Source: Clostridia bacterium (GTDB lineage: Bacteria; Bacillota; Clostridia; Oscillospirales; Acutalibacteraceae). From it: 64,000 bases of DNA. Each line of letters starts with the position of its first letter. Positions within the stretch are counted from its first letter, which is position 1. The notes beneath the pieces were generated by a model. It searched no databases. It was not told the origin of the DNA and worked only from the letters and a program-made list of their open reading frames with translations. This document shows, piece by piece, positions 24,051 through 64,000 of the stretch. The stretch is taken from positions 124,001 to 188,000 of the forward strand of contig JAFTWB010000024.1 of NCBI GenBank assembly GCA_017465505.1, read 5' to 3'. The position numbers and the translations under genes are program-made.

Positions 24051-25355
24051 TTAATCATAAACTGCCGTTACTTGCGAAACCTTGATACCTCTCAAGTCTT
24101 TTATGTCCTCTTTATTTACTTCAAAATAGATGTTGTAGTTTGCCAAAGCCTCTTGCCAGCCTCCATCTTCTCCGGGGTCATCATATCCGCACCATATATG
24201 TAGTACGCCATCTTTATATGTAAGGCTGTCAGGTGCAATGTGCTGAGAAGAGCTGAAATAAAATCTGTAAAGATATACAAGAGATTTGGTTTCGAAAAAC
24301 TCTTCGTCAAATTTTTCTGAGCTTCTGCCAAAGAAAGCCTCAAATTCCTCTACGCTCTTAAACACAGTTGTGTAATTTGAAACATCAGGAGTATCGTAGT
24401 TAAGTATCAGGTCAAGCTCACCGCTTGAAAGAGGCCCTGAGGAGTATTTTACTGACTCAATAACCTTTTCTTCTGTATCGTTACGATATCTGAAGGTTAC
24501 CGGATAAAGCTCTCTTCTACAAGTATATTTAAGGCCTGCCAGCTTTTTCTGTATGTTTGTTACATCCCTTATGTCGATTTTTAAGTCGCCGTTGAAGTCT
24601 GCAACCAGCTTATAAACCTCGTCAATCTTTGCAAGATACTTCTGCAATGCGGTGGCGTCACGGATGTTAAGCTTTTCATCCTTATTTACGTCACCGATTA
24701 TTCTACATCCCTCAAGCTTTTCGTCAAACCACTCGGCACTGTCCCTGACCTTTACAGGCAAATATCGACCTGTTGCTTCATAGTCAACATCCCAGTAGAA
24801 ATTCTCATCATAAGGCTTATTGGAATAAACAACAATCAGCTTATTCCAGACGCCAATGCGGTATTCGCACCGGGTGAGAGTGTGAGGGTTATCTTCCTCA
24901 ATGGCAGAGTAGTGAATATGTCCGTTTTCTTCAAACTTGATTGCTCCGTCAACGTTAAGGGATTTCTGAATTTGTTCTTCATTTAAGTTGTAGTATATCA
25001 TAAACCTCAGAGCATTGGAAACACCATCACAAGAATATGAGGTAAAGGTATAGTCGACGCCTTGTCGGTAGGAGCTTTCTGCATAGCTGAAGCTTTCAGC
25101 GATATATTCCTTATCCTTGGGCTGAGGAATCACAACCTCTTTAAGCTCAAGGTGATAGCCTGTGGGGATATCCCTGTGAAAATAATAATCCTCAACAAAA
25201 GGATAATCCTCCAAAAAATCATCCAGCGACTGAAGCATTTCTTCTTTTTCTGTGAAAGACCGGGAATATGGCGGTGTTTCAGCATTTACGGAAATTACCG
25301 AGCCCACCACAAGAAGAGTTGCCAGCATAAGAGAAAAAATCTTTTTGAATGTCAT
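24051..25355 (-). CDS. Secreted dockerin-containing protein
   Basis: A 434-residue secreted protein with a signal peptide (cleavage near ISVNA, residue 25) and a type I dockerin placed in the middle (about 220-275). The two calcium-binding F-hand repeats are clear: GDVNKDEKLNIRDATALQKY (D222, N224, D226) and ADFNGDLKIDIRDVTNIQKK (D253, N255, D257). Dockerins bind cohesin domains of scaffoldins or surface anchors. The N-terminal (30-205) and C-terminal (285-434) parts are not recognised; no catalytic motif is visible. Internal placement of the dockerin between two unknown domains is less common than a C-terminal one. AAGGAGG before the ATG supports the start. Cohesin-like domains at the right end of this window are possible partners, an inference. 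Confidence 0.8.
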   Translation of the reverse strand: MTFKKIFSLMLATLLVVGSVISVNAETPPYSRSFTEKEEMLQSLDDFLEDYPFVEDYYFHRDIPTGYHLELKEVVIPQPKDKEYIAESFSYAESSYRQGVDYTFTSYSCDGVSNALRFMIYYNLNEEQIQKSLNVDGAIKFEENGHIHYSAIEEDNPHTLTRCEYRIGVWNKLIVVYSNKPYDENFYWDVDYEATGRYLPVKVRDSAEWFDEKLEGCRIIGDVNKDEKLNIRDATALQKYLAKIDEVYKLVADFNGDLKIDIRDVTNIQKKLAGLKYTCRRELYPVTFRYRNDTEEKVIESVKYSSGPLSSGELDLILNYDTPDVSNYTTVFKSVEEFEAFFGRSSEKFDEEFFETKSLVYLYRFYFSSSQHIAPDSLTYKDGVLHIWCGYDDPGEDGGWQEALANYNIYFEVNKEDIKDLRGIKVSQVTAVYD

Positions 25356-55342: not shown

Positions 55343-55418
55343 TAAATTGCAGTATATAATTATAACTATTTTATTATATACTATATTTAAAAATATTTCA
55401 ATAAGGCGTGAGAACATT

Positions 55419-57407
55419 ATGACAAAAAAATACACCTACGGCAGTCCTTTTTTTACAGGTGCTGTTGTTAAGGATTTAGCGATTGAAGCTACCCCTATCC
55501 CCTACTTTAAGGTTTGCCTTGAGGATGGCATTTCCTTTGAATATAAAATGAATGACAGGGACATTGTTTACGGCTTAGGTGAGGCTTCACGAGGCATTAA
55601 CAAGCGTGGATACGTTTACGACTCTTATTGCAGTGACGATTTCTGCCATCTTGAAACCACTCGCTCTCTTTACGGTGCTCACAACTTCATCCTCATTGAA
55701 GGCGAGCAGACTTTCGGTGCTTTCTTTGATTATCCCACAAAGATCACCTTTGACATCGGCTTTACAAAGGCAGACACACTAAAGATTTTCTGCAACAAAG
55801 CAGACATCGACGTTTATATTATTGAGGGTGACTCTCCTCTTGAAATTGTAAAATCCTTCAGACAGCTTATCGGCAAGAGCTACATTCCTCCACGTTGGGC
55901 TATGGGCTATATGCAGAGCCGTTGGAGCTACTATACCTCAGACGCTGTAAGAGAGGTCGCAAAGAATTACCGCAAAGAAAACATTCCTCTGGACGCAATC
56001 TTCCTTGATATCGACTATATGGAGGACTACAAAGACTTCACCATAAATAGCGAGCGTTTCGGTGACCTGCCTCAGCTTATTGAGGAAATGAAAGAGGAAG
56101 GTATCCGCCTTGTACCTATCATTGACGCAGGCGTTAAGATTGAAGACGGCTATGATATATACGAAGAGGGTTTAGAAAAAGGCTATTACTGCGTTGACAA
56201 AGACGGCAAGCCTTTCAAAGCAGGCGTATGGCCCGGACTTACCCACTTCCCCGATTTTCTTAACGAGGAAGCAGGACTTTGGTTTGGACTTAAATACAAG
56301 GCTCTCACCGACCTTGGCATTGAAGGCTTCTGGAACGATATGAACGAGCCTGCTATTTTCTATTCCGAAAACGGAATCAACCGCTTCTACGAAAAGCTTT
56401 CCGAAATTACAAACGGGGATAAGTCCGTTGACAACTACAACAAAATCAAGGACATTGTAAATTCATTACAAAACTCTCAGGAGGACTACAACTCCATTTA
56501 TCACAACGTTAACGGCAAGCTTATAAAGCACAACGACATCCACAATATGTACGGCTACAAAATGACAGAGTGTACCGCAAAGGCTCTTAAAAAACTCCGC
56601 CCCGATGAAAGAACTCTTCTCTTCTCCCGTGCCTCTTACGTTGGTATGCACCGCTGTGCAGGTATCTGGACAGGCGACAACTTCTCCTGGTGGAGCCACA
56701 TTCTCCTTGAGCTCAAGCAGCTTCCTGCTCTTAATATGTGTGGTTTCCTTTATGTGGGTGCTGATTTAGGCGGATTTGGCAACAACGCCAGCCGTGACCT
56801 TGTTTTAAGATGGCTGGGACTTGGAATTTTCACTCCTCTTATGCGTAACCACGCCGCTCTCTGTACAAGAGATCAGGAGTGCTATCAGTTTGAAAATCCC
56901 GAAGATTTCAAGAATATAATTGACCTCAGATACCGCCTTATCCCCTATCTTTACAGTGAGTTCTTAAAGTGTGCCGTGGAGGACAAGATGTTCTTCAAAC
57001 CCCTTGGCTTTGAGTATAAGGACGACGAAATGGCAAGAAACTGTGAAGACCAGCTCTTTGTTGGTGAGGAGCTTATGATTGCCCCTGTTTACACTCAGAA
57101 CGCCATTGGCAGATACGTTTATCTCCCCGAGGATATGATGTCTGTCCGCCTTAAAGCAGGCGGAGAGCTTGAATTTGCAGAAATGGCAAAGGGTCATCAC
57201 TTTGTTGAGATTCCTCTCAATGAAGTTGTATTCTTCATAAGAAGCGGCAAGTGTATTCCTCTTTGCGAGCCTGCTCTTTCCACAGACAGCCTTGATATGG
57301 ACAACCTCACCTTAATCGGCTTTGATGGTGCAAGCTATGAGCTTTACACCGATGACGGTATGAGCACCGATTTAAGCAAAATTCAGAAAAAGACACTTGA
57401 AAAATAA
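55419..57407 (+). CDS. GH31 alpha-glucosidase, cytosolic
   Basis: Glycoside hydrolase family 31 enzyme expected to release glucose from the ends of maltooligosaccharides or related alpha-glucans. The catalytic nucleophile is Asp307 in EGFWNDMNEPA and the acid/base Asp420 in AGIWTGDNFSWW. Other family signatures are YGLGEASRGINKRG, PPRWAMGYMQSRWSY and PLMRNHAA. 662 residues from the chosen ATG, with no signal peptide, so the substrate must be imported first. AAGGCGTGAG lies upstream of the ATG; a longer in-frame extension is hydrophobic but overlaps the promoter. It fits an organism with surface starch-binding proteins, as suggested at the right end. Confidence 0.93.
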   Translation: MTKKYTYGSPFFTGAVVKDLAIEATPIPYFKVCLEDGISFEYKMNDRDIVYGLGEASRGINKRGYVYDSYCSDDFCHLETTRSLYGAHNFILIEGEQTFGAFFDYPTKITFDIGFTKADTLKIFCNKADIDVYIIEGDSPLEIVKSFRQLIGKSYIPPRWAMGYMQSRWSYYTSDAVREVAKNYRKENIPLDAIFLDIDYMEDYKDFTINSERFGDLPQLIEEMKEEGIRLVPIIDAGVKIEDGYDIYEEGLEKGYYCVDKDGKPFKAGVWPGLTHFPDFLNEEAGLWFGLKYKALTDLGIEGFWNDMNEPAIFYSENGINRFYEKLSEITNGDKSVDNYNKIKDIVNSLQNSQEDYNSIYHNVNGKLIKHNDIHNMYGYKMTECTAKALKKLRPDERTLLFSRASYVGMHRCAGIWTGDNFSWWSHILLELKQLPALNMCGFLYVGADLGGFGNNASRDLVLRWLGLGIFTPLMRNHAALCTRDQECYQFENPEDFKNIIDLRYRLIPYLYSEFLKCAVEDKMFFKPLGFEYKDDEMARNCEDQLFVGEELMIAPVYTQNAIGRYVYLPEDMMSVRLKAGGELEFAEMAKGHHFVEIPLNEVVFFIRSGKCIPLCEPALSTDSLDMDNLTLIGFDGASYELYTDDGMSTDLSKIQKKTLEK

Positions 57408-57797: not shown

Positions 57798-58367
57798 TCA
57801 GCAGATAATCTCGCCGTCTACTGTGCCTGTTAAGCCGGCAGCGTTGGACTCATCAGTGTCGATGTGCATTGCAGGGAAGAACTTGTCGCTTACGCGGCAA
57901 ACAACGTCGCCGAATGTGAGCTCTCTGCCTGTACCCATACCAACCTTAACGGAAACAATCTGCTTGTCCTCTACGCCGAACTCAGCAGCAGCTTCGGGAG
58001 TAAGATGGATATGACGCTTTGCAGCGATAACGCCCTCAGTGATTTCAACCTCACCCATAGGGCCAACCAGCTTGCAGCCGGGTGTGCCTGCAACATCGCC
58101 GGACTCACGAACAGGAGCAGCAATGCCAAGCTTTCTGGCGTCGGTGAGAGCAACCTCAACCTGATCAGCAGGTCTTACAGGGCCGAGAATAGACATTGTA
58201 AGGTCACCTTTGGGGCCAACAACCTTAACCTTCTCTGCACAAGCAAACTGACCGGGCTGAGAAAGGTCCTTTTTGTTGGTAAGCACTGCGTCCTTACCGA
58301 AAAGTGTTTCAAGAGTAGACTGACATACGTGAATATGTCTTGCAGAAGTTTCTACCATAATTTTCAT
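57798..58367 (-). CDS. pduL: PduL-type phosphate acyltransferase
   Basis: Transfers acetyl or propionyl groups between CoA and phosphate. 189 residues made of two similar beta-barrel halves, with the zinc-binding ARHIHV near the N terminus and KRHIHLTPEAAAEFGV in the second half. No encapsulation peptide is evident at the N terminus and no microcompartment genes are near, so it probably serves as the housekeeping phosphotransacetylase for acetate formation. Monocistronic with its own promoter and terminator. Confidence 0.9.
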   Translation of the reverse strand: MKIMVETSARHIHVCQSTLETLFGKDAVLTNKKDLSQPGQFACAEKVKVVGPKGDLTMSILGPVRPADQVEVALTDARKLGIAAPVRESGDVAGTPGCKLVGPMGEVEITEGVIAAKRHIHLTPEAAAEFGVEDKQIVSVKVGMGTGRELTFGDVVCRVSDKFFPAMHIDTDESNAAGLTGTVDGEIIC

Positions 58368-58407
58368 TTTGAAATTACCACCATTTCATTAAATATTTAA
58401 CAATGTT

Positions 58408-58436
58408 ATTTTACACCCAACTGCGACAAATTTCAA
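58408..58436 (-). promoter_or_regulatory. Promoter of pduL
   Basis: TTGAAA (58431-58436), 17-bp spacer, TAAAAT (58408-58413) on the minus strand, about 40 bp before the ATG. Confidence 0.75.
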
Positions 58437-58464
58437 CTCTTTTATCCATTTTAGGAGGGATTAT

Positions 58465-59037
58465 ATGTATAAAACCTGGGAAGAATTGCAAAAAGCCTGC
58501 AATACCTGCACAAAATGCGGTCTTTGTGAGGACAGAACCAATGTTGTTTTTGGCGTTGGCGTTAAAAATGCCGAGGTAATGTTTATTGGCGAAGGTCCGG
58601 GAGAGAACGAGGACATACAGGGCGAGCCCTTTGTAGGCAGAGCCGGAAAGCTTCTGGACAAAATGCTTGAGGCGGTGGATTTAAGCCGAGAGAAAAATAT
58701 ATACATCGCAAATATGGTAAAATGCAGACCACCAAAAAACCGTGACCCAAAGCCTGAGGAAACCGAGCTTTGTATTGACTGGCTTAGGAATCAGTTCAGG
58801 CTTATGAAGCCCAAAATTGTGGTTTGCTTAGGCAGAATTGCCGCCGCTAAGCTTATTAAGCCTGACATAAAAATCACCAAAGAGCACGGAATGTGGTTTG
58901 AGAAAAACGGCACACTGATGATGGCAATGCTCCACCCTGCCGCACTTTTACGTGACCCGAGAAAAAAGCCCGAGGCGTTTGAAGATTTCCTCACCTTACA
59001 GGCAAAAATCAAGGAAATCTGCGAAAGCACATACTGA
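58465..59037 (+). CDS. Uracil-DNA glycosylase, family 4 type
   Basis: Removes uracil from DNA. N-terminal cysteines (C12, C15, C18, C21) and the later Cys in MVKCRPP and TELCIDW provide the ligands of the [4Fe-4S] cluster of family 4/5 enzymes. Active-site motifs GEGPGENEDIQGEPFVGRAG and MLHPAALLRDP are present. 190 residues. AGGAGGG ribosome site. Ends 9 bp before the GNAT gene. Confidence 0.93.
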   Translation: MYKTWEELQKACNTCTKCGLCEDRTNVVFGVGVKNAEVMFIGEGPGENEDIQGEPFVGRAGKLLDKMLEAVDLSREKNIYIANMVKCRPPKNRDPKPEETELCIDWLRNQFRLMKPKIVVCLGRIAAAKLIKPDIKITKEHGMWFEKNGTLMMAMLHPAALLRDPRKKPEAFEDFLTLQAKIKEICESTY

Positions 59038-59046
59038 GAGGCTGCT

Positions 59047-59469
59047 ATGGAAATCAGAGTTTTTCACAAGTTACCCCTTGAAGCTGTTAACATAAGAATG
59101 AATATTTTCGTTAAGGAGCAAGGTTTTTCCGAAACTCTTGAGATTGATGAAAACGAAGAGAGAGCAACCCACATCGTAGGCTTTATAGACGGCAAGCCTG
59201 CAGCCACCTCCAGATTCTTTTATGATGAAAGAAGAGGTGCTTACCTTATAAGCCGAATTGCAGTTTTGAAGGAACACAGAGGTAAAGGGCTGGGTGCACT
59301 AATAGTAAAAGCCGCCGAAGAACAAATCAGGGCTCAGAATGGCAAGACTACAGTTATTCACGCTCAGCTCAGAGTCAAGGGTTTTTATGAATCCATAGGC
59401 TACACTGCTTATGGTGATGTTGACCTTGAGGAAGGCGTAGAGCATATTATGATGAGAAAAGATTTATAA
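59047..59469 (+). CDS. GNAT-family N-acetyltransferase (ElaA-like)
   Basis: 140-residue acetyltransferase. The acetyl-CoA loop is ISRIAVLKEHRGKGLGALIV, followed by VIHAQLRVKGFYESIGYTAYG, as in the ElaA/YjcF group. Acceptor unknown. Likely co-transcribed with the UDG gene; the pair has no functional link that I can see. Confidence 0.88.
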   Translation: MEIRVFHKLPLEAVNIRMNIFVKEQGFSETLEIDENEERATHIVGFIDGKPAATSRFFYDERRGAYLISRIAVLKEHRGKGLGALIVKAAEEQIRAQNGKTTVIHAQLRVKGFYESIGYTAYGDVDLEEGVEHIMMRKDL

Positions 59470-59477
59470 AGAGCACA

Positions 59478-59504
59478 ACAAAACCCCCGAGGTTTCCTCG
59501 GGGG
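59478..59504. terminator. Terminator between the GNAT gene and the surface-protein array
   Basis: CCCCCGAGG-TTT-CCTCGGGGG (59484-59504). T-rich sequence is better on the minus strand (TTTTGTTGTG), so it probably ends the surface gene transcript and may serve the GNAT gene as well. Confidence 0.8.
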
Positions 59505-59569
59505 TAAGTTGTTTCGACAATTATATATTATCTGTCAATCAGACTGAAAGTAGAAAAGTAAAGTATAAA

Positions 59570-60406
59570 TTACTCAGTTACCTTCTTGCGAGCGAAGAAA
59601 ACTACGCCAGCAGCAGCGATCATCATAGCGATAGCTACAACAACGATTGTTGTTTCCTGACCGGAAGAAACTGCGCCACCTGTGGAAGGTGTAGCGGGAG
59701 CGTCAACTGTAGGAGCAACGGACTTCTCCTGTTCCCAAGCAACTTCTACGCCGGAATCCTTGATGAGCTTAGCTGTTGTATCCTGAGAAAGACCGAGAGC
59801 AGTGGACATATCGTCGATGATAGCCTGATCCTGCTTACCGCTATATGTTCTAGCGTCATCGAGCCAATCGTTGAGGAAGTCTGTGAAGAGCTTCTCAGCT
59901 GTAACTCCGGGGGGGAGGCAAGTACCGATGAGGTTACCGATAGATGTAACCTGCATTACGGGACCGTAGAGAGACTTATCCTGGTTCTTCCAGAAAGCAG
60001 CAACTGCTGTCTTGGAGCTATCCTGGGGGTTCTCATAGATTGTGCCATCAGCGTAAAGTGTATCGCCGTAGCAAGCAGATGTCATAATTGTGTCGTAAGT
60101 CTGAAGGCCGATATCTACGCTGAAGATTACACCGTAGTACTCGCCGTCTGTAAGACCGCCAACCTTGGATACATCGTAGGAATAGAGCTTATCTTCAACC
60201 TTTGTGCACTTCTCCTTCTTGGACTGCCAAGCTGCGAGAGAGTCACCGCCGTATGCCCAGATGTGGCAGTATACGGAGCTGAAGTTGTTCCAATCTGCGG
60301 GAACTTCGAAATAAATTGTTGTGTCGTCAGCAGCACTTACGCCGATAACAGCAACACTAGCCATGCAAACGAGAGCAAGAGCTAAGCAAAGAATCTTTTT
60401 GAACAT
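59570..60406 (-). CDS. Surface protein A: CBM26-like domain, linker, C-terminal anchor
   Basis: 278-residue secreted protein. Signal peptide (1-25, VSAAD), then a beta-rich domain (about 29-165) starting IYFEVPADWNNFSSVYCHIW that resembles CBM26-type starch-binding modules and closely matches the paralogue at 61473. A helical segment follows (about 168-225), then a Pro/Thr linker, PSTGG (240-244) and a hydrophobic stretch (about 252-271) ending FARKKVTE. The tail looks like a sorting or membrane anchor without a canonical LPXTG. Three Cys (67, 112, 163) are shared with its paralogue. Starch binding is an inference from similarity of the aromatic pattern; no enzyme motif is present. AGGAGGAG before the ATG. 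Confidence 0.7.
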   Translation of the reverse strand: MFKKILCLALALVCMASVAVIGVSAADDTTIYFEVPADWNNFSSVYCHIWAYGGDSLAAWQSKKEKCTKVEDKLYSYDVSKVGGLTDGEYYGVIFSVDIGLQTYDTIMTSACYGDTLYADGTIYENPQDSSKTAVAAFWKNQDKSLYGPVMQVTSIGNLIGTCLPPGVTAEKLFTDFLNDWLDDARTYSGKQDQAIIDDMSTALGLSQDTTAKLIKDSGVEVAWEQEKSVAPTVDAPATPSTGGAVSSGQETTIVVVAIAMMIAAAGVVFFARKKVTE

Positions 60407-60443
60407 TGCAATCTCCTCCTAAAAATATAAATGTTCAGTCTGA

Positions 60444-60457
60444 GACGATATATCGTC
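60444..60457. promoter_or_regulatory. Perfect palindrome in the leader of surface gene A
   Basis: GACGATATATCGTC is a perfect 14-bp inverted repeat located just after the expected transcription start. It could be an operator or a small RNA stem that protects the mRNA. It is not present in the leaders of the other two genes. Confidence 0.5.
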
Positions 60458-60463
60458 ATACTG

Positions 60464-60492
60464 ATTATACACTATATATTTCAAAACTGCAA
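60464..60492 (-). promoter_or_regulatory. Promoter of surface gene A (59570-60406)
   Basis: TTGCAG (60487-60492), 17-bp spacer, TATAAT (60464-60469) on the minus strand. The -35 lies in CTATTGC, shared with the other promoters of this array. Confidence 0.85.
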
Positions 60493-60550
60493 TAGTTTTG
60501 TATATTTTGTAACCAAAAAAATTAAAATTTTTATTATAATTTATTTAGAA

Positions 60551-60583
60551 AAGAAAAAACCTTCCGATTACTCGGAAGGTTTT
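60551..60583 (-). terminator. Terminator of surface gene B
   Basis: AAACCTTCCGA-TTAC-TCGGAAGGTTT followed on the minus strand by TTTTCTTTTC. Confidence 0.85.
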
Positions 60584-60607
60584 GAAATTTTAAGTTATTG
60601 CTTAAAA

Positions 60608-61327
60608 TTAAGCGTTAGCCTTCTTGCGAAGAACTACAACTGCAGCACCAGCCATAGCAACTACTGCGAGAACTGCGAACATAGCAACTGTGGAACCTGT
60701 GGGAGGTGTGTCGTTGCCGTCAGCAGGAGTTGTAGCTGTGGAGCCCTGAACGTCTGTTGCAGGAACAAGAGTTGTAGCCTCAGCTGTTGTAGCCTCTGTG
60801 GGAGCAACTGTTGTAGCCTCTGTGGGAGCAACTGTTGTTGTGGGAACTGTTGCCTGTGTTGTGGGAGCAACGTAGCCTACCATAGCTTCGTCAAGAACAA
60901 CTGCGTCGTTCTTCTTCTCGCTATTTGTGTAGTAGGAATCGCCGTCCTTCTCTGTCATCTCTTCGATTGTGATAGCAGCAGTAGCCTCACCATCGCCGAT
61001 AGCCTTGAACTTGATCTCTACGAGTGTAGCAGCTGCCTTGAAGTCAATACCCTTAACAACGGAAGCGTTGAAGTATACTGTACCGGCAACCTCTGTGTTT
61101 ACGATAGCGGAATCACCAAGGTTAGGTGTCTCACAAGCAACAACCTCAAGAACTGCGGGATCGTATGTAACGTAGCCCTGAACGTCCTCGATGAGCTCGG
61201 GAGTTGTAAGAGTAGCTGTGTAAACATACTCGCCCTCAGCGTCAGCTGTTAATGCGCTAGCGCCAACGATTGCAAAGCTTGCGAGGCAAACAATTGCAAG
61301 TGCTAAAGTGATAATTCTCTTGAACAT
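60608..61327 (-). CDS. Surface protein B: cohesin-like domain, Thr/Pro linker, C-terminal anchor
   Basis: 239-residue secreted protein. Signal peptide (1-25, GASAL), then a beta-sandwich (about 30-150) with features of cohesin folds: VYTATLTTPELIEDVQGYV, VTYDPAVLEVV, AGTVYFNASV and TLVEIKFKAIGDGEATAAIT. A Thr/Val/Ala/Pro linker (151-206) includes a repeat TTVAPTEA encoded by two perfect 24-bp DNA copies (60786-60833). The tail has DTPPTG (207-211), a hydrophobic helix (213-233) and RKKANA. The start at 61327 follows AGGAGG; upstream in-frame ATGs overlap the promoter. The same domain and tail occur in the protein at 62795. Cohesin function (dockerin binding) is an inference. Confidence 0.7.
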   Translation of the reverse strand: MFKRIITLALAIVCLASFAIVGASALTADAEGEYVYTATLTTPELIEDVQGYVTYDPAVLEVVACETPNLGDSAIVNTEVAGTVYFNASVVKGIDFKAAATLVEIKFKAIGDGEATAAITIEEMTEKDGDSYYTNSEKKNDAVVLDEAMVGYVAPTTQATVPTTTVAPTEATTVAPTEATTAEATTLVPATDVQGSTATTPADGNDTPPTGSTVAMFAVLAVVAMAGAAVVVLRKKANA

Positions 61328-61358
61328 TTGGATTTTCCTCCTAAAAAATATTTTCTTC

Positions 61359-61387
61359 ATTATACAATATCTGCTCATTAAAAGCAA
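61359..61387 (-). promoter_or_regulatory. Promoter of surface gene B (60608-61327)
   Basis: TTGCTT (61382-61387), 17-bp spacer, TATAAT (61359-61364) on the minus strand, with CTATTGC over the -35. Confidence 0.85.
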
Positions 61388-61423
61388 TAGTATTTTACAA
61401 AAAAATATTGGAATTTTTTAAAA

Positions 61424-61450
61424 AAACAAATCCTCGGCAGTTGCCGAGGA
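61424..61450 (-). terminator. Terminator of surface gene A'
   Basis: TCCTCGGCA / TGCCGAGGA (61431-61450) followed on the minus strand by TTTGTTTTTTT. Confidence 0.85.
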
Positions 61451-61472
61451 CTTTTTCAGTCTGTTTTAAGGG

Positions 61473-62312
61473 TTAATTTGCAGATTTTTTGCGTAAGAAA
61501 ACTACAACCGCAACTGCACAAATCATCATAACTGCGGCAACTGCAACAACTGTTGTTTCCTGACCTGAAGAAACTGCACCACCGGCTGACGGTGTTACAG
61601 GCTTGTCAACTGTGGGAGCCTGGCTCTGAGCCTTTTCCCACTTAACCTCTACGCCATTTTCTTTGATAATAGCCTCTCCCTTATCCTGAGAAAGACCGAG
61701 AGCGTTTAAGATATCGTCGATAATCTGCTGGTCAGTCTTACCGCTGTGAGTCTGGGCACTTGAGAGGTTATTCTTAAGGAAGCCCTCAAAGAGAGTTTCG
61801 GCAGTTGAACCTGAGGGAATACAAGTACCCACAAGGTTACCGATAGATGTTACCTGCATAATAGGTCCGTAAACAGAACGGTCCTGATTTTTCCAGAAGG
61901 CAGCAAGGGCTGTCTTTGAGCTGTCGGAAGGATTCTCATAAACTGTACCGTCGCTGTAAAGTGTGTCGCCGATACAATCGGTTGTGAGAAGTGCGTCGTA
62001 GGTCTGGAGGTCGATATCAACCACAAAAATAAGACCGTAGTTAACACCTGCCTGAAGTCCGCCTGCTTTGCTGAGGTCATAGGAATAGAGCTTGCCTTCA
62101 ACCTGCTCGCAGGCACCTTTCTTTGATTTCCAGCCAACAATAGGACCTGAGCCGTCAAGATTCCAGATGTAGCAGAACACCTTGGAGTAGTTGTTCCAGT
62201 TTTCAGGAACTTCGAAATAAATTTTGTCAGCGTCAGCGGCACTGACACCAACCATGGCAATGCCTGCAACGCAGACAAGTACCAGTGCAAGACAAAGAAC
62301 TCTCTTTATCAT
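61473..62312 (-). CDS. Surface protein A': paralogue of the CBM26-like protein
   Basis: 279-residue paralogue of the protein at 59570, with the same order: signal peptide (VSAAD), CBM26-like domain (IYFEVPENWNNYSKVFCYIW), conserved GDTLYSDGTVYENPSDSSKT and GPIMQVTSIGNLVGTC blocks, a helical segment, Pro/Thr linker, a tail with PSAGGAVSSGQETTVV, a hydrophobic helix and LRKKSAN. Here the STGG of the paralogue is SAGG, so a strict sorting motif is not kept. The two share almost every aromatic residue of the first domain, which suggests both still bind ligand. AGGAGGAA ribosome site. Confidence 0.7.
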   Translation of the reverse strand: MIKRVLCLALVLVCVAGIAMVGVSAADADKIYFEVPENWNNYSKVFCYIWNLDGSGPIVGWKSKKGACEQVEGKLYSYDLSKAGGLQAGVNYGLIFVVDIDLQTYDALLTTDCIGDTLYSDGTVYENPSDSSKTALAAFWKNQDRSVYGPIMQVTSIGNLVGTCIPSGSTAETLFEGFLKNNLSSAQTHSGKTDQQIIDDILNALGLSQDKGEAIIKENGVEVKWEKAQSQAPTVDKPVTPSAGGAVSSGQETTVVAVAAVMMICAVAVVVFLRKKSAN

Positions 62313-62367
62313 CTGATATTCCTCCTAAATAAAAAGATATTCCTTGCAAGCGTATCTCCTTGAGTCT

Positions 62368-62396
62368 ATTATATATCAACTTTATACTATTTGCAA
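62368..62396 (-). promoter_or_regulatory. Promoter of surface gene A' (61473-62312)
   Basis: TTGCAA (62391-62396), 17-bp spacer, TATAAT (62368-62373) on the minus strand, with CTATTGC over the -35. Confidence 0.85.
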
Positions 62397-62442
62397 TAGA
62401 CCATTTAAATTTATTGAGAATTTTAAGTCCAAGAAACAATAA

Positions 62443-62688
62443 AAGCTTCACTTTAAAGTTAGGCACGATTACATCCAAACGCCACTCAGCCTTTACACCG
62501 CCTTCAATATGCCCTATCTCCCCACCGATTTTTCAGAAGTTGTAATCTCCCACTGTAACTACCAGTTCGGTTATCCTGGGAATAATTTTTGTGACTCCGC
62601 CGTTAACGTGCTATTCCTTCATCGCAAACCTTCCAAAAGGCGGAAATGCCCACCGTGGATAACGGACGGAAACGCCCACCGTGGATAA
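62443..62688 (+). other. Start-less open frame running into the tandem repeat
   Basis: The frame containing 62464 is open for about 80 codons (HDYIQTPLSLYTAFNMPYLP and on to CNYQFGYPGNNFCDSAVN, LFLHRKPSKRRK) and ends inside the 26-bp repeats. It lacks an ATG/GTG/TTG with a ribosome site at its beginning. The coding-like composition could mean a decayed gene end or a translated repeat; it may also be chance. Otherwise this 480-bp gap holds only the promoter, repeats and terminator listed. Confidence 0.3.
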
Positions 62689-62718
62689 CGGACGGAAATG
62701 TCCACCGTGGCTAACGGT
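62597..62718 (+). repeat. Dispersed element copy 2 with three 26-bp tandem repeats
   Basis: CCGCCGTTAA at 62597, AAAAGGCGGAA, then CCACCGTGGATAACGG ending at 62665. The terminal part is repeated three times with a 26-bp period: 62641-62666, 62667-62692 and 62693-62718. Units differ at a few positions (ATGCCC, ACGCCC, ATGTCC; GGATAA versus GGCTAA). The last unit ends GGCTAACGGT like the copy at 23065. Confidence 0.8.
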
Positions 62719-62721
62719 AAA

Positions 62722-62750
62722 AAGAAAACTCCTCCCCATAAGGGGAGGAG
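62722..62750 (-). terminator. Terminator of surface gene B'
   Basis: CTCCTCCCC-ATAA-GGGGAGGAG (62729-62750) followed on the minus strand by TTTTCTTTTT. Confidence 0.85.
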
Positions 62751-62794
62751 CAAAGCATAAAACTAAGAGTTAAATATTCTTAGATGTCTTTGAA

Positions 62795-64000
62795 TTAAGC
62801 GTTAGCCTTCTTGCGAAGAACAACAACTGCTGCTGCAGCCATAGCAACTACTGCGAGAACTGCGAAGATAGCAACGTTTGCACCTGTGGGAGGTGTATCG
62901 TTACCGCCAGCGGGAGTTGTAGCTGTGGAGCCCTGAACATCTGTTGCAGGAGCTGTGGGAGCTGCTGTGGGAGCAACTGTCTCTGTGGGAGCTACTGTTG
63001 TTGCAGGAACTGTGGGTGTGGGAGGTACGGGAACGTCGAGTGTCTCTGTGAGAACAACTGCGTCGTTAACCTGCTCGTCGTTTGTGAAGTAGGAGTCGCC
63101 GTCCTTCTCTGTCATCTCGTTGATTGTGAGAACGATCTCAGAAGCCTCAGCTGTGAGAACCTTGAACTCAAGAACAACGAGGCCAGCCTCTGTTGTGAAG
63201 TCCATACCCTTAACTACGGAAGCGTTGAAGTTAACTTCGCCAGCGATTTCTGTGTTGAGGATAGCAGAATCTTCGATAACGGGAAGAGTGCAGCTAACGA
63301 GCTCTAACTTAGTAGCATCGTACTTAACGAGAGCCTGAACGTCCTCGATAAGAGCAGGAGTCTTAAGTGTAGCTGTGTATGTAACAACATCGTCTACGAG
63401 AGCTGTGTAGTCTGTGCCAGCAACTGTGATAGTAGCTGCCTCAACTGCAGGCTCAGAAGGAGTTGTTGTGTCTGTGTTCTCAACAGGAACGGGAGCCTCG
63501 AAGTAGCTCTGCTGATTGAAGTAAACAGCGCCCTTCTCAGGTGTGTAGCCGTACTCGCCGTTGCCGTAGTAGTAGAACCACTCACCAGCGAATGTGGACT
63601 TACCGCTGAAATCGTTAACTTCTGTCTTGGACTCGTCAACAACGTAGATCATCTCGTCGAAGCTGGGAAGACCTTCAGGATAGTTAGCGCTCTCATCGGG
63701 ATCATAATACTCAGAACCGATGTTCTTTGTCTGATATGCTGCTGTGTAGATAGCCTGCTCAGCGTCTGTGCCGCCGTCGATAGCGTTGTTCCAGATGATT
63801 GTTGTAACGTCAGCATTTACATCATAGTAGTAAATGTTTTCAACATCTGTCTTGTTTGCTACATAGCCGGGCCATGCGTCGCACTTGCCAGTGCCTTCCC
63901 ACCAGTAAATACCAGCGGTTGTTGCGTACTCGTTGTACCAGGTCTCAGGCATAGAGAAATAGTATCTGTTGTAGCCATCTTCCTTAGCAGGAAGCTCAGC
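62795..64000 (-). CDS. Surface protein B' (5' end outside window): starch-module-like plus cohesin-like domain
   Basis: The frame is open to the end of the window, so the N terminus is missing; about 401 residues are visible. The first part (YYFSMPETWYNEYATTAGIY, WPGY, TTIIWNNAIDGG) looks like another carbohydrate-binding module of the CBM26 kind, with a conserved tail FAGEWFYYYGNGEYG. Then follows a cohesin-like domain almost colinear with the protein at 60608 (TATLKTPALIEDVQALVKYD, DSAILNTEIAGEVNFNASVV, NEMTEKDGDSYFTN), a Pro/Thr/Ala linker, TPPTG, a hydrophobic helix and RKKANA. It is thus a natural fusion of a binding module and the B domain. Function inferred from domains only. Confidence 0.7.
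   Translation of the reverse strand, partial: AELPAKEDGYNRYYFSMPETWYNEYATTAGIYWWEGTGKCDAWPGYVANKTDVENIYYYDVNADVTTIIWNNAIDGGTDAEQAIYTAAYQTKNIGSEYYDPDESANYPEGLPSFDEMIYVVDESKTEVNDFSGKSTFAGEWFYYYGNGEYGYTPEKGAVYFNQQSYFEAPVPVENTDTTTPSEPAVEAATITVAGTDYTALVDDVVTYTATLKTPALIEDVQALVKYDATKLELVSCTLPVIEDSAILNTEIAGEVNFNASVVKGMDFTTEAGLVVLEFKVLTAEASEIVLTINEMTEKDGDSYFTNDEQVNDAVVLTETLDVPVPPTPTVPATTVAPTETVAPTAAPTAPATDVQGSTATTPAGGNDTPPTGANVAIFAVLAVVAMAAAAVVVLRKKANA

Follow-up and report, generated by a model that had tools for sequence, protein, structure and literature searches.

A six-gene array of cohesin proteins and putative Sas20d1-like starch binders as a probable anchoring locus of an amylosome-type system in a Clostridia bacterium

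What could be the role of a run of small genes alternating between a starch-binding type of protein and a cohesin-like protein in the genome of a Clostridia bacterium? The genes lie at the end of a 64,000-nucleotide stretch (hereafter, the window) that corresponds to positions 124001-188000 of contig C25, in a genome of 1.9 Mb, 30 contigs and 84% completeness. A preliminary description of this DNA had pointed to four consecutive minus-strand genes in the order B'-A'-B-A, and all four are indeed there: A, B and A' at the coordinates given below, and B' running past the window end. This order is nonetheless incomplete, as reading beyond the window reveals a six-gene array on the minus strand, B''-C-B'-A'-B-A in the direction of transcription. 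Here we propose that the array is very probably the cell-surface anchoring locus of an amylosome, i.e., a cohesin-dockerin system for starch of the Ruminococcus bromii type, since the same genome encodes 60 open reading frames (ORFs) with a dockerin, 4 of them with a GH13 domain and 17 with a CBM26 domain. The six genes, with their predicted domains, are the following (aa, amino acids).

59570-60406, minus strand: A, 278 aa; signal peptide, Sas20d1-like domain (DNA 59732-60328), short linker, hydrophobic anchor-like tail with terminal ARKKVTE
60608-61327, minus strand: B, 239 aa; signal peptide, one cohesin (DNA 60878-61237), Thr/Pro linker, TPPTG-type tail (hydrophobic stretch and RKK)
61473-62312, minus strand: A', 279 aa; paralogue of A with the same layout
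62795 to beyond 64000, minus strand: B', 429 aa; signal peptide, CBM26-related module B1N (DNA 63485-63994), cohesin (DNA 63023-63394), linker, TPPTG-type tail
Upstream of B', outside the window, minus strand: C, 254 aa; cohesin
Upstream of C, outside the window, minus strand: B'', 475 aa; X25 module, PVETTAA linker, cohesin, tail as in B (TPPTG, hydrophobic stretch, RKK)

The window end truncates the array within B', whose start lies 84 bases outside (C25:188084, window 64084). For B the start was set at the ATG at 61327, whereas the ORF table opens it at an upstream TTG, and signal peptides were judged by eye from the sequence and not by a prediction tool. The relationships proposed in the preliminary description hold well: A and A' are colinear paralogues with 64% identity over 276 residues, and B and B' share 61% identity over 204 aligned residues that span the cohesin, the Thr/Pro linker and the tail, similarities that at the sequence level lie far beyond chance. 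Furthermore, B'' is 63% identical to B over 211 residues. The suggested origin by duplication of a two-gene unit has to be abandoned in its simple form: there are six genes, and A' forms a group by itself across four genomes (support 0.997), so that the duplication behind A and A' is old.

The A proteins had been described as CBM26-like, and this is borne out in two ways, by Pfam scores just under the CBM26 cut-off of 28.1 bits (27.9 for A, 24.1 for A') and by homology to a solved R. bromii domain. A alone matches the structures 7RAW and 7RFT, deposited as 'dockerin domain-containing protein', with E 1e-24, and the A profile matches both with E 4e-38, positions 28-200 of the profile aligning with 17-207 of the 7RAW chain and covering the beta-sandwich and extending into the helical part. 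From the molecule name and the spacing of residues, both entries would be structures of domain 1 of Sas20, a starch-binding protein of the R. bromii amylosome. This domain is made of a beta-sandwich and a helical bundle, captures the non-reducing end of maltooligosaccharides, and in its crystallised form is reported to bind maltotriose (PMC9112005). A resembles it in having a CBM26-like part followed by a further C-terminal stretch, which is helical in the published crystal structure. When the alignment of A to the PDB match is combined with the published residue numbers, the platform residue W72 of Sas20 corresponds to W60 of A, and the contact residues N151, D154 and K157 to N126, D129 and K132. 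Two contacts differ, Y60 being W50 and T152 being P127 in A, and the placement of Q127 and N130 of Sas20 in A is not confident. The platform tryptophan, which is essential, is kept in all 26 A modules compared, and the position of Y60 is occupied by W in 25 of them and by Y in one.

Sequence homology thus identifies A and A' as relatives of Sas20 domain 1 with anchor-like tails. Sas20 itself has a second domain, of X25 type, and a dockerin, whereas A and A' have the tail and no dockerin. Another counterpart is L2-63_00923 of R. bromii L2-63 (in print as both RBR_02940 and RBR_09240), an anchored protein for which a Sas20d1-like module, a C-terminal surface signal and the identical changes at Y60 and T152 have been reported (PMC9112005).

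The second family was described as cohesin-like, and the homologies agree with this. C is a Pfam cohesin (PF00963) with 43.3 bits, above the cut-off, B is related to C with E 3e-7, and a B'-like relative in another genome (G045) reaches 34 bits, also above the cut-off. Four PDB chains are matched at E 0.1 or better by a joint cohesin profile (A3): 7URP (1.1e-9), whose deposited name is 'Ribonucleases G and E', 4UMS, a cellulosomal anchoring scaffoldin B (E 0.0078), 9QF3, R. bromii Amy4 (E 0.02), and 1G1K, a scaffolding protein (E 0.095). PDB searches with the single proteins B', C and B'' gave no significant match, and only the profile did. By these homologies, B, B', B'' and C each carry one cohesin. 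As for the additional modules, the X25 of B'' scores 35.4 bits in Pfam, above its cut-off. The extra binding module noted in B' is present; it is, however, a separate module, B1N, weakly related to CBM26 (hhalign with the A alignment, E 4.7e-5, probability 68%; 20.7 bits for one relative in Pfam, below the cut-off; no significant match for the module in PDB), and it occupies the same position of B' in all four syntenic relatives described below.

What would dock on such cohesins? Pfam finds 62 dockerin matches in the 60 ORFs, of which 55 were scanned singly at E 1e-4 and the other five in separate Pfam scans. All share one consensus and are type I in Pfam. Among the best 25 of 41 families matched, to which all the following partner counts refer, CBM26 is the most frequent partner domain, followed by LRR_5 in 15 of the 60 ORFs; two of the four GH13 ORFs also have CBM48 and MucBP, and X25, CBM48, CHAP, Peptidase_C1 and CotH occur in two ORFs each. 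Several ORFs show the dockerin domain only. The glycoside hydrolase domains amount to the four GH13, two GH25 and one MGH1-like, and, at the thresholds applied, no cellulase or xylanase domain turned up among the 60 ORFs of this genome, itself 84% complete. Only one Pfam dockerin match falls within the window:

24051..25355, minus strand: dockerin protein, 434 aa, 36.6 bits; a possible client of the array

On the cohesin side, the A3 profile detects six cohesins in the source genome, four in the array and one each on contigs C6 and C27. They stand in six separate ORFs, so that no multi-cohesin scaffoldin was found in this incomplete assembly. The C6 ORF (L139 3445-4746, 433 aa) combines the A3-type cohesin with a dockerin and could be an adaptor scaffoldin, and that of C27 (L140 3237-3881) places a cohesin in a short protein with a lipoprotein-like start, possibly a lipid-anchored docking site. 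Moreover, on contig C11, at ~57.1-59.0 kb (L141 3079-4976), an A-dockerin ORF (324 aa) adjoins a B1N-dockerin ORF (267 aa), which would represent dockerin versions of two modules that are anchored in the array. Many of the dockerin proteins are of the BspA leucine-rich-repeat (LRR) type, and the docking system may carry much besides starch enzymes.

Altogether, a working scheme can be outlined. B, B', B'' and C would be expressed and exported as scaffoldins with a single cohesin each, which their C-terminal tails would keep at the envelope. Each cohesin would dock one dockerin protein, for instance a starch binder with CBM26 or X25, a pullulanase or a GH13 amylase. B' and B'' would additionally hold starch by their own modules of starch-binding type, and the anchored A and A' would take hold of starch chains at their non-reducing ends, next to the docked enzymes, and act jointly with them.

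Does this association recur in other genomes? Three genes lie immediately downstream of the array; their names are the ones we presume from the sequence.

57798-58367, minus strand: presumably PduL-like
58465-59037, plus strand: presumably uracil-DNA-glycosylase-like
59047-59469, plus strand: presumably GNAT-like

Together they make up the flank 57798..59469, and the PduL-like and uracil-DNA-glycosylase-like genes mark the array locus in relatives. A large plus-strand ORF nearby (55347-57407) resembles what we take to be a GH31 alpha-glucosidase.

Matches to A were found in 87 of the 148 genomes searched, namely the source, 85 of the 89 remaining genomes of its genus and a single genome from another one, and the A3 profile matches 88 of the 90 genomes of the genus. 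The named records with A relatives are metagenome-assembled genomes, several from goat, sheep and roe deer gut, and several titled Ruminococcus sp. Twelve named loci with A were fetched for comparison and four of them (L082-L085) display the array backbone. The PduL-like gene lies downstream in each of these, and oadA lies upstream in L082-L084, L085 being cut on that side. L082 has the exact array order; L083 contains one further B-type gene together with an A-cohesin fusion; in L084 an A-cohesin fusion replaces A'; and L085, which also has such a fusion, lacks a separate B. By tblastn, none of the four loci showed the X25 module of B'', the N-terminal module being different there. A fifth locus with the same downstream flank, L090, has the backbone in altered form, with two A genes, one gene for a single-cohesin protein, and a scaffoldin made up of X25, CBM26 and three cohesins.

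The preliminary description had considered a fused ancestor for B', and A-cohesin fusion ORFs do exist in relatives. In each, a single ORF with a single tail contains both A and a B-type cohesin (474 aa in L083, 434 aa in L084, 451 aa in L085), with a Pfam cohesin match only for L084, below the cut-off. Furthermore, a 641-aa ORF of the genome G068 matches the A and cohesin profiles and neither Pfam model.

Pairing was also examined from the flank, in a comparison with less bias. PduL-like matches occur in 38 of 40 genomes of the genus, and the upstream side was fetched for 20 of these 38, chosen partly by the DNA available; the source, G026 (the genome of L083) and 16 others were left out, and the 20 include G036, for which A and cohesin matches close together had been noted beforehand. 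A cohesin gene is directly followed by A on the same strand in seven of the 20 loci, one has A alone in a region that begins at the contig start, and one has cohesins alone. The cohesin-A pair is therefore common at this locus, but not universal, and a cohesin accompanies A where A is present. Accordingly, the pairing expected in relatives stands for seven of the eight flank loci with A, and not for those with neither gene, to which we return below. Further cohesin-A pairs, not counted here, exist in G005, G031, G047, G071 and G076, where the regions were chosen for near matches, and in G068, which was taken as a single-contig genome. In G045, G072 and G078, a stretch of ~25 kb brings a scaffoldin cluster together with a CBM26-dockerin gene, GH13-CBM26 genes and an anchored A (eight neighbour genes of these clusters were scanned by Pfam).

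Several observations weigh against the array being an amylosome anchoring locus. With regard to anchoring, the tails are TPPTG or SSGQETT and not LPXTG, all NCBIfam and Pfam anchor models remain below their cut-offs, and C has no TG motif; thus attachment to the wall is uncertain and simple membrane anchoring is possible. On the other side, four sortase matches are present in the source genome. With regard to docking, B, B' and B'' as proteins have no Pfam cohesin match, and in the genome search B attains 22 bits against a cut-off of 24.1, so that calling them cohesins rests on the homology to C and on the A3 profile, which has 23 rows, 5 of them C-type, and whose clearly named PDB matches are weak. 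With regard to pairing, seven of the twelve named A loci show no cohesin in the DNA fetched, and 11 of the 20 flank loci have neither A nor cohesin, one of these being only 1,753 bases long. Finally, in R. bromii the gene of the anchored A homologue is reported to stand between an alanine-tRNA ligase and an endonuclease and to lack a cohesin neighbour (PMC9112005), which argues against a strict link between A and cohesins.

These points bear on three alternatives. A and A' could be free-standing starch adhesins that merely lie beside scaffoldin genes, adhesion and docking being separate matters. A has neither cohesin nor dockerin, the R. bromii homologue was judged unlikely to be part of the amylosome in PMC9112005, and in L086, L087 and L088 an anchored A has no cohesin gene within the fetched DNA. 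We nevertheless regard this explanation as unlikely, because the cohesin gene stands directly upstream of A on the same strand in seven of eight flank loci, the eighth beginning at a contig start, because single ORFs of L083, L084, L085 and G068 combine A with a cohesin, and because the A of L088 itself stands after a dockerin gene and two GH13-CBM26 genes. Indeed, the fusions, the G045, G072 and G078 clusters and the neighbours in L088 are the best arguments that the anchored A would work with scaffoldins and amylases, contrary to the published view.

A broader surface system, in which the cohesin proteins would also dock LRR, CHAP, peptidase and CotH proteins, is a somewhat stronger competitor, though we would still bet against it. 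Most dockerin proteins of the source genome are not starch enzymes, as the LRR_5, CHAP, Peptidase_C1 and CotH counts given above illustrate, and LRR and peptidase-like dockerin proteins are also reported in the R. bromii amylosome (PMC9112005). Nevertheless, CBM26 is the commonest partner domain, no cellulase or xylanase domain was found at the thresholds used, the glycoside hydrolase domains being GH13, GH25 and MGH1-like, and A, A' and B'' carry modules of starch-binding type. In turn, a superficial resemblance to CBM26 and cohesins that hides an unrelated role, for instance general adhesion to host or cells, seems to us highly improbable, given that A is homologous to a crystallised maltotriose-binding domain with most contact residues kept and that the genome has 60 dockerin ORFs. 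The amylosome anchoring locus remains, then, the reading we favour.

A further question concerns how the locus evolves, since its parts differ greatly in conservation. Between the source and L084, identity is 98% for oadA, 97% for PduL, 92% for A, 90% for BCCP, 89% for the uracil-DNA-glycosylase-like gene, 82% for B1N and 74% for the GNAT-like gene, and among the cohesins 76% for C, 48% for B'', 41% for B and 37% for B'. A' has no counterpart in L084, the fusion copy there giving 38%. Likewise, between L083 and L084 the synonymous divergence (dS) is 0.17 for the A domain, 0.24 for B1N and 1.06 for the B' cohesin. The B' proteins of these two loci were compared in windows of 30 residues:

L083, 4036-5304: B'
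L084, 6104-7342: B'

Their first 180 residues are 87-100% identical, identity falls to 70% and 35% towards the linker, the cohesin ranges from 33 to 62%, and the tail recovers to 83-90%. B and B'' present a weaker mosaic pattern, with 69% in the signal region of B and 96-100% in the tails. High dS accompanying high nonsynonymous divergence (dN) suggests that the cohesin core was replaced by diverged versions, rather than having undergone only fast amino-acid change.

In a cohesin tree, the three stand-alone B-type cohesins of L084 (B'', B' and B) make up a class of their own (0.946). B'', B' and the fusion copy of L085 likewise cluster (0.960), and so do the three of the source (0.787). The L082 and L083 copies, in contrast, pair according to position rather than genome, and the L084 class does not include the fusion cohesin of that genome, so that concerted evolution of the B-type cohesins finds only partial support. 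The possibility that dockerin loops change together with the cohesin classes was considered and rejected, in a comparison restricted to the calcium loops of part of the dockerins: these look alike in the source (30 loci), G026 (15) and G074, the genome of L084 (15, of which 13 gave loops), and show no shift with the classes. As a tentative idea, to which we grant rather poor odds, the locus might be a docking-site cassette system, in which the B-type genes retain signal peptide, binding module and tail and swap the cohesin core, with the stand-alone B-type cohesins of a genome tending to change jointly to one class. If this were true, close relatives would show different docking faces with no visible difference in the calcium loops of the dockerins sampled, and the exchange would either reserve enzymes for one lineage or help surface proteins to evade phages or immunity.

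The array genes look like separate units rather than one operon, because a terminator-like hairpin stands on the same strand at the 3' side of each of the six genes. These sites come from a consensus scan only, which gave 24 in the region on both strands against 7.0 expected from shuffles. Those of the window genes are the following.

59483..59505 (L003 505-483), minus strand: terminator-like hairpin 3' of A
60556..60583 (L003 1583-1556), minus strand: terminator-like hairpin 3' of B
61428..61453 (L003 2453-2428), minus strand: terminator-like hairpin 3' of A'
62728..62751 (L003 3751-3728), minus strand: terminator-like hairpin 3' of B'

Between B' and A', three tandem 26-base units occupy window positions 62641-62717. 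Their core, CCCACCGTGGATAACGG, is a dispersed repeat, with 24 copies across many contigs of the source genome when one mismatch is allowed, against 0 for the reversed control.

How does the array compare with known systems? The Sas20d1 domain, X25 scaffoldins, anchored cohesins and the amylosome itself are already known (PMC9112005, PMC5814915). The suggestion that the array differs from known amylosome components is not supported, as A belongs to the Sas20d1 family, with a published anchored member in R. bromii, and B belongs with the anchored scaffoldins. In R. bromii, Sca2 and Sca5 are cohesin proteins with a C-terminal surface signal, and Sca5 combines X25 modules and cohesins as B'' does, a likeness drawn from their published description; Sca5 has two cohesins and two X25, whereas the array brings together four one-cohesin genes (PMC5814915, PMC9112005). 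L2-63_00923, for its part, is reported to have no scaffoldin neighbours and was judged to be outside the amylosome (PMC9112005), whereas A and A' are two copies inside a scaffoldin array. With cellulosomes, the array shares the cohesin-dockerin principle and dockerins of Pfam type I, and the source genome differs in the cellulase, xylanase and multi-cohesin scaffoldin results given above. By homology, the array would be an enlarged version of the known amylosome. No description of a paired array of this kind was found in the open-licence literature searched, judged by titles and the start of abstracts. As far as that literature goes, the array of six genes is new, and so are the recurrent pairing of a cohesin with A, the fusion of the two in one ORF and the mosaic divergence of the cohesins.

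R. bromii has been described as a keystone species in the breakdown of resistant starch (PMC9112005). The way in which bacteria of this kind keep enzymes and starch close to each other is still under study. In this context, gene pairing and natural fusions would tie the anchored Sas20d1 proteins, placed outside the amylosome in PMC9112005, to scaffoldins. The small single-cohesin proteins of the array should be easy to express and test. Moreover, conserved starch-binding parts and strongly diverged cohesins at one and the same locus would make cohesin-dockerin specificity between related species directly testable.

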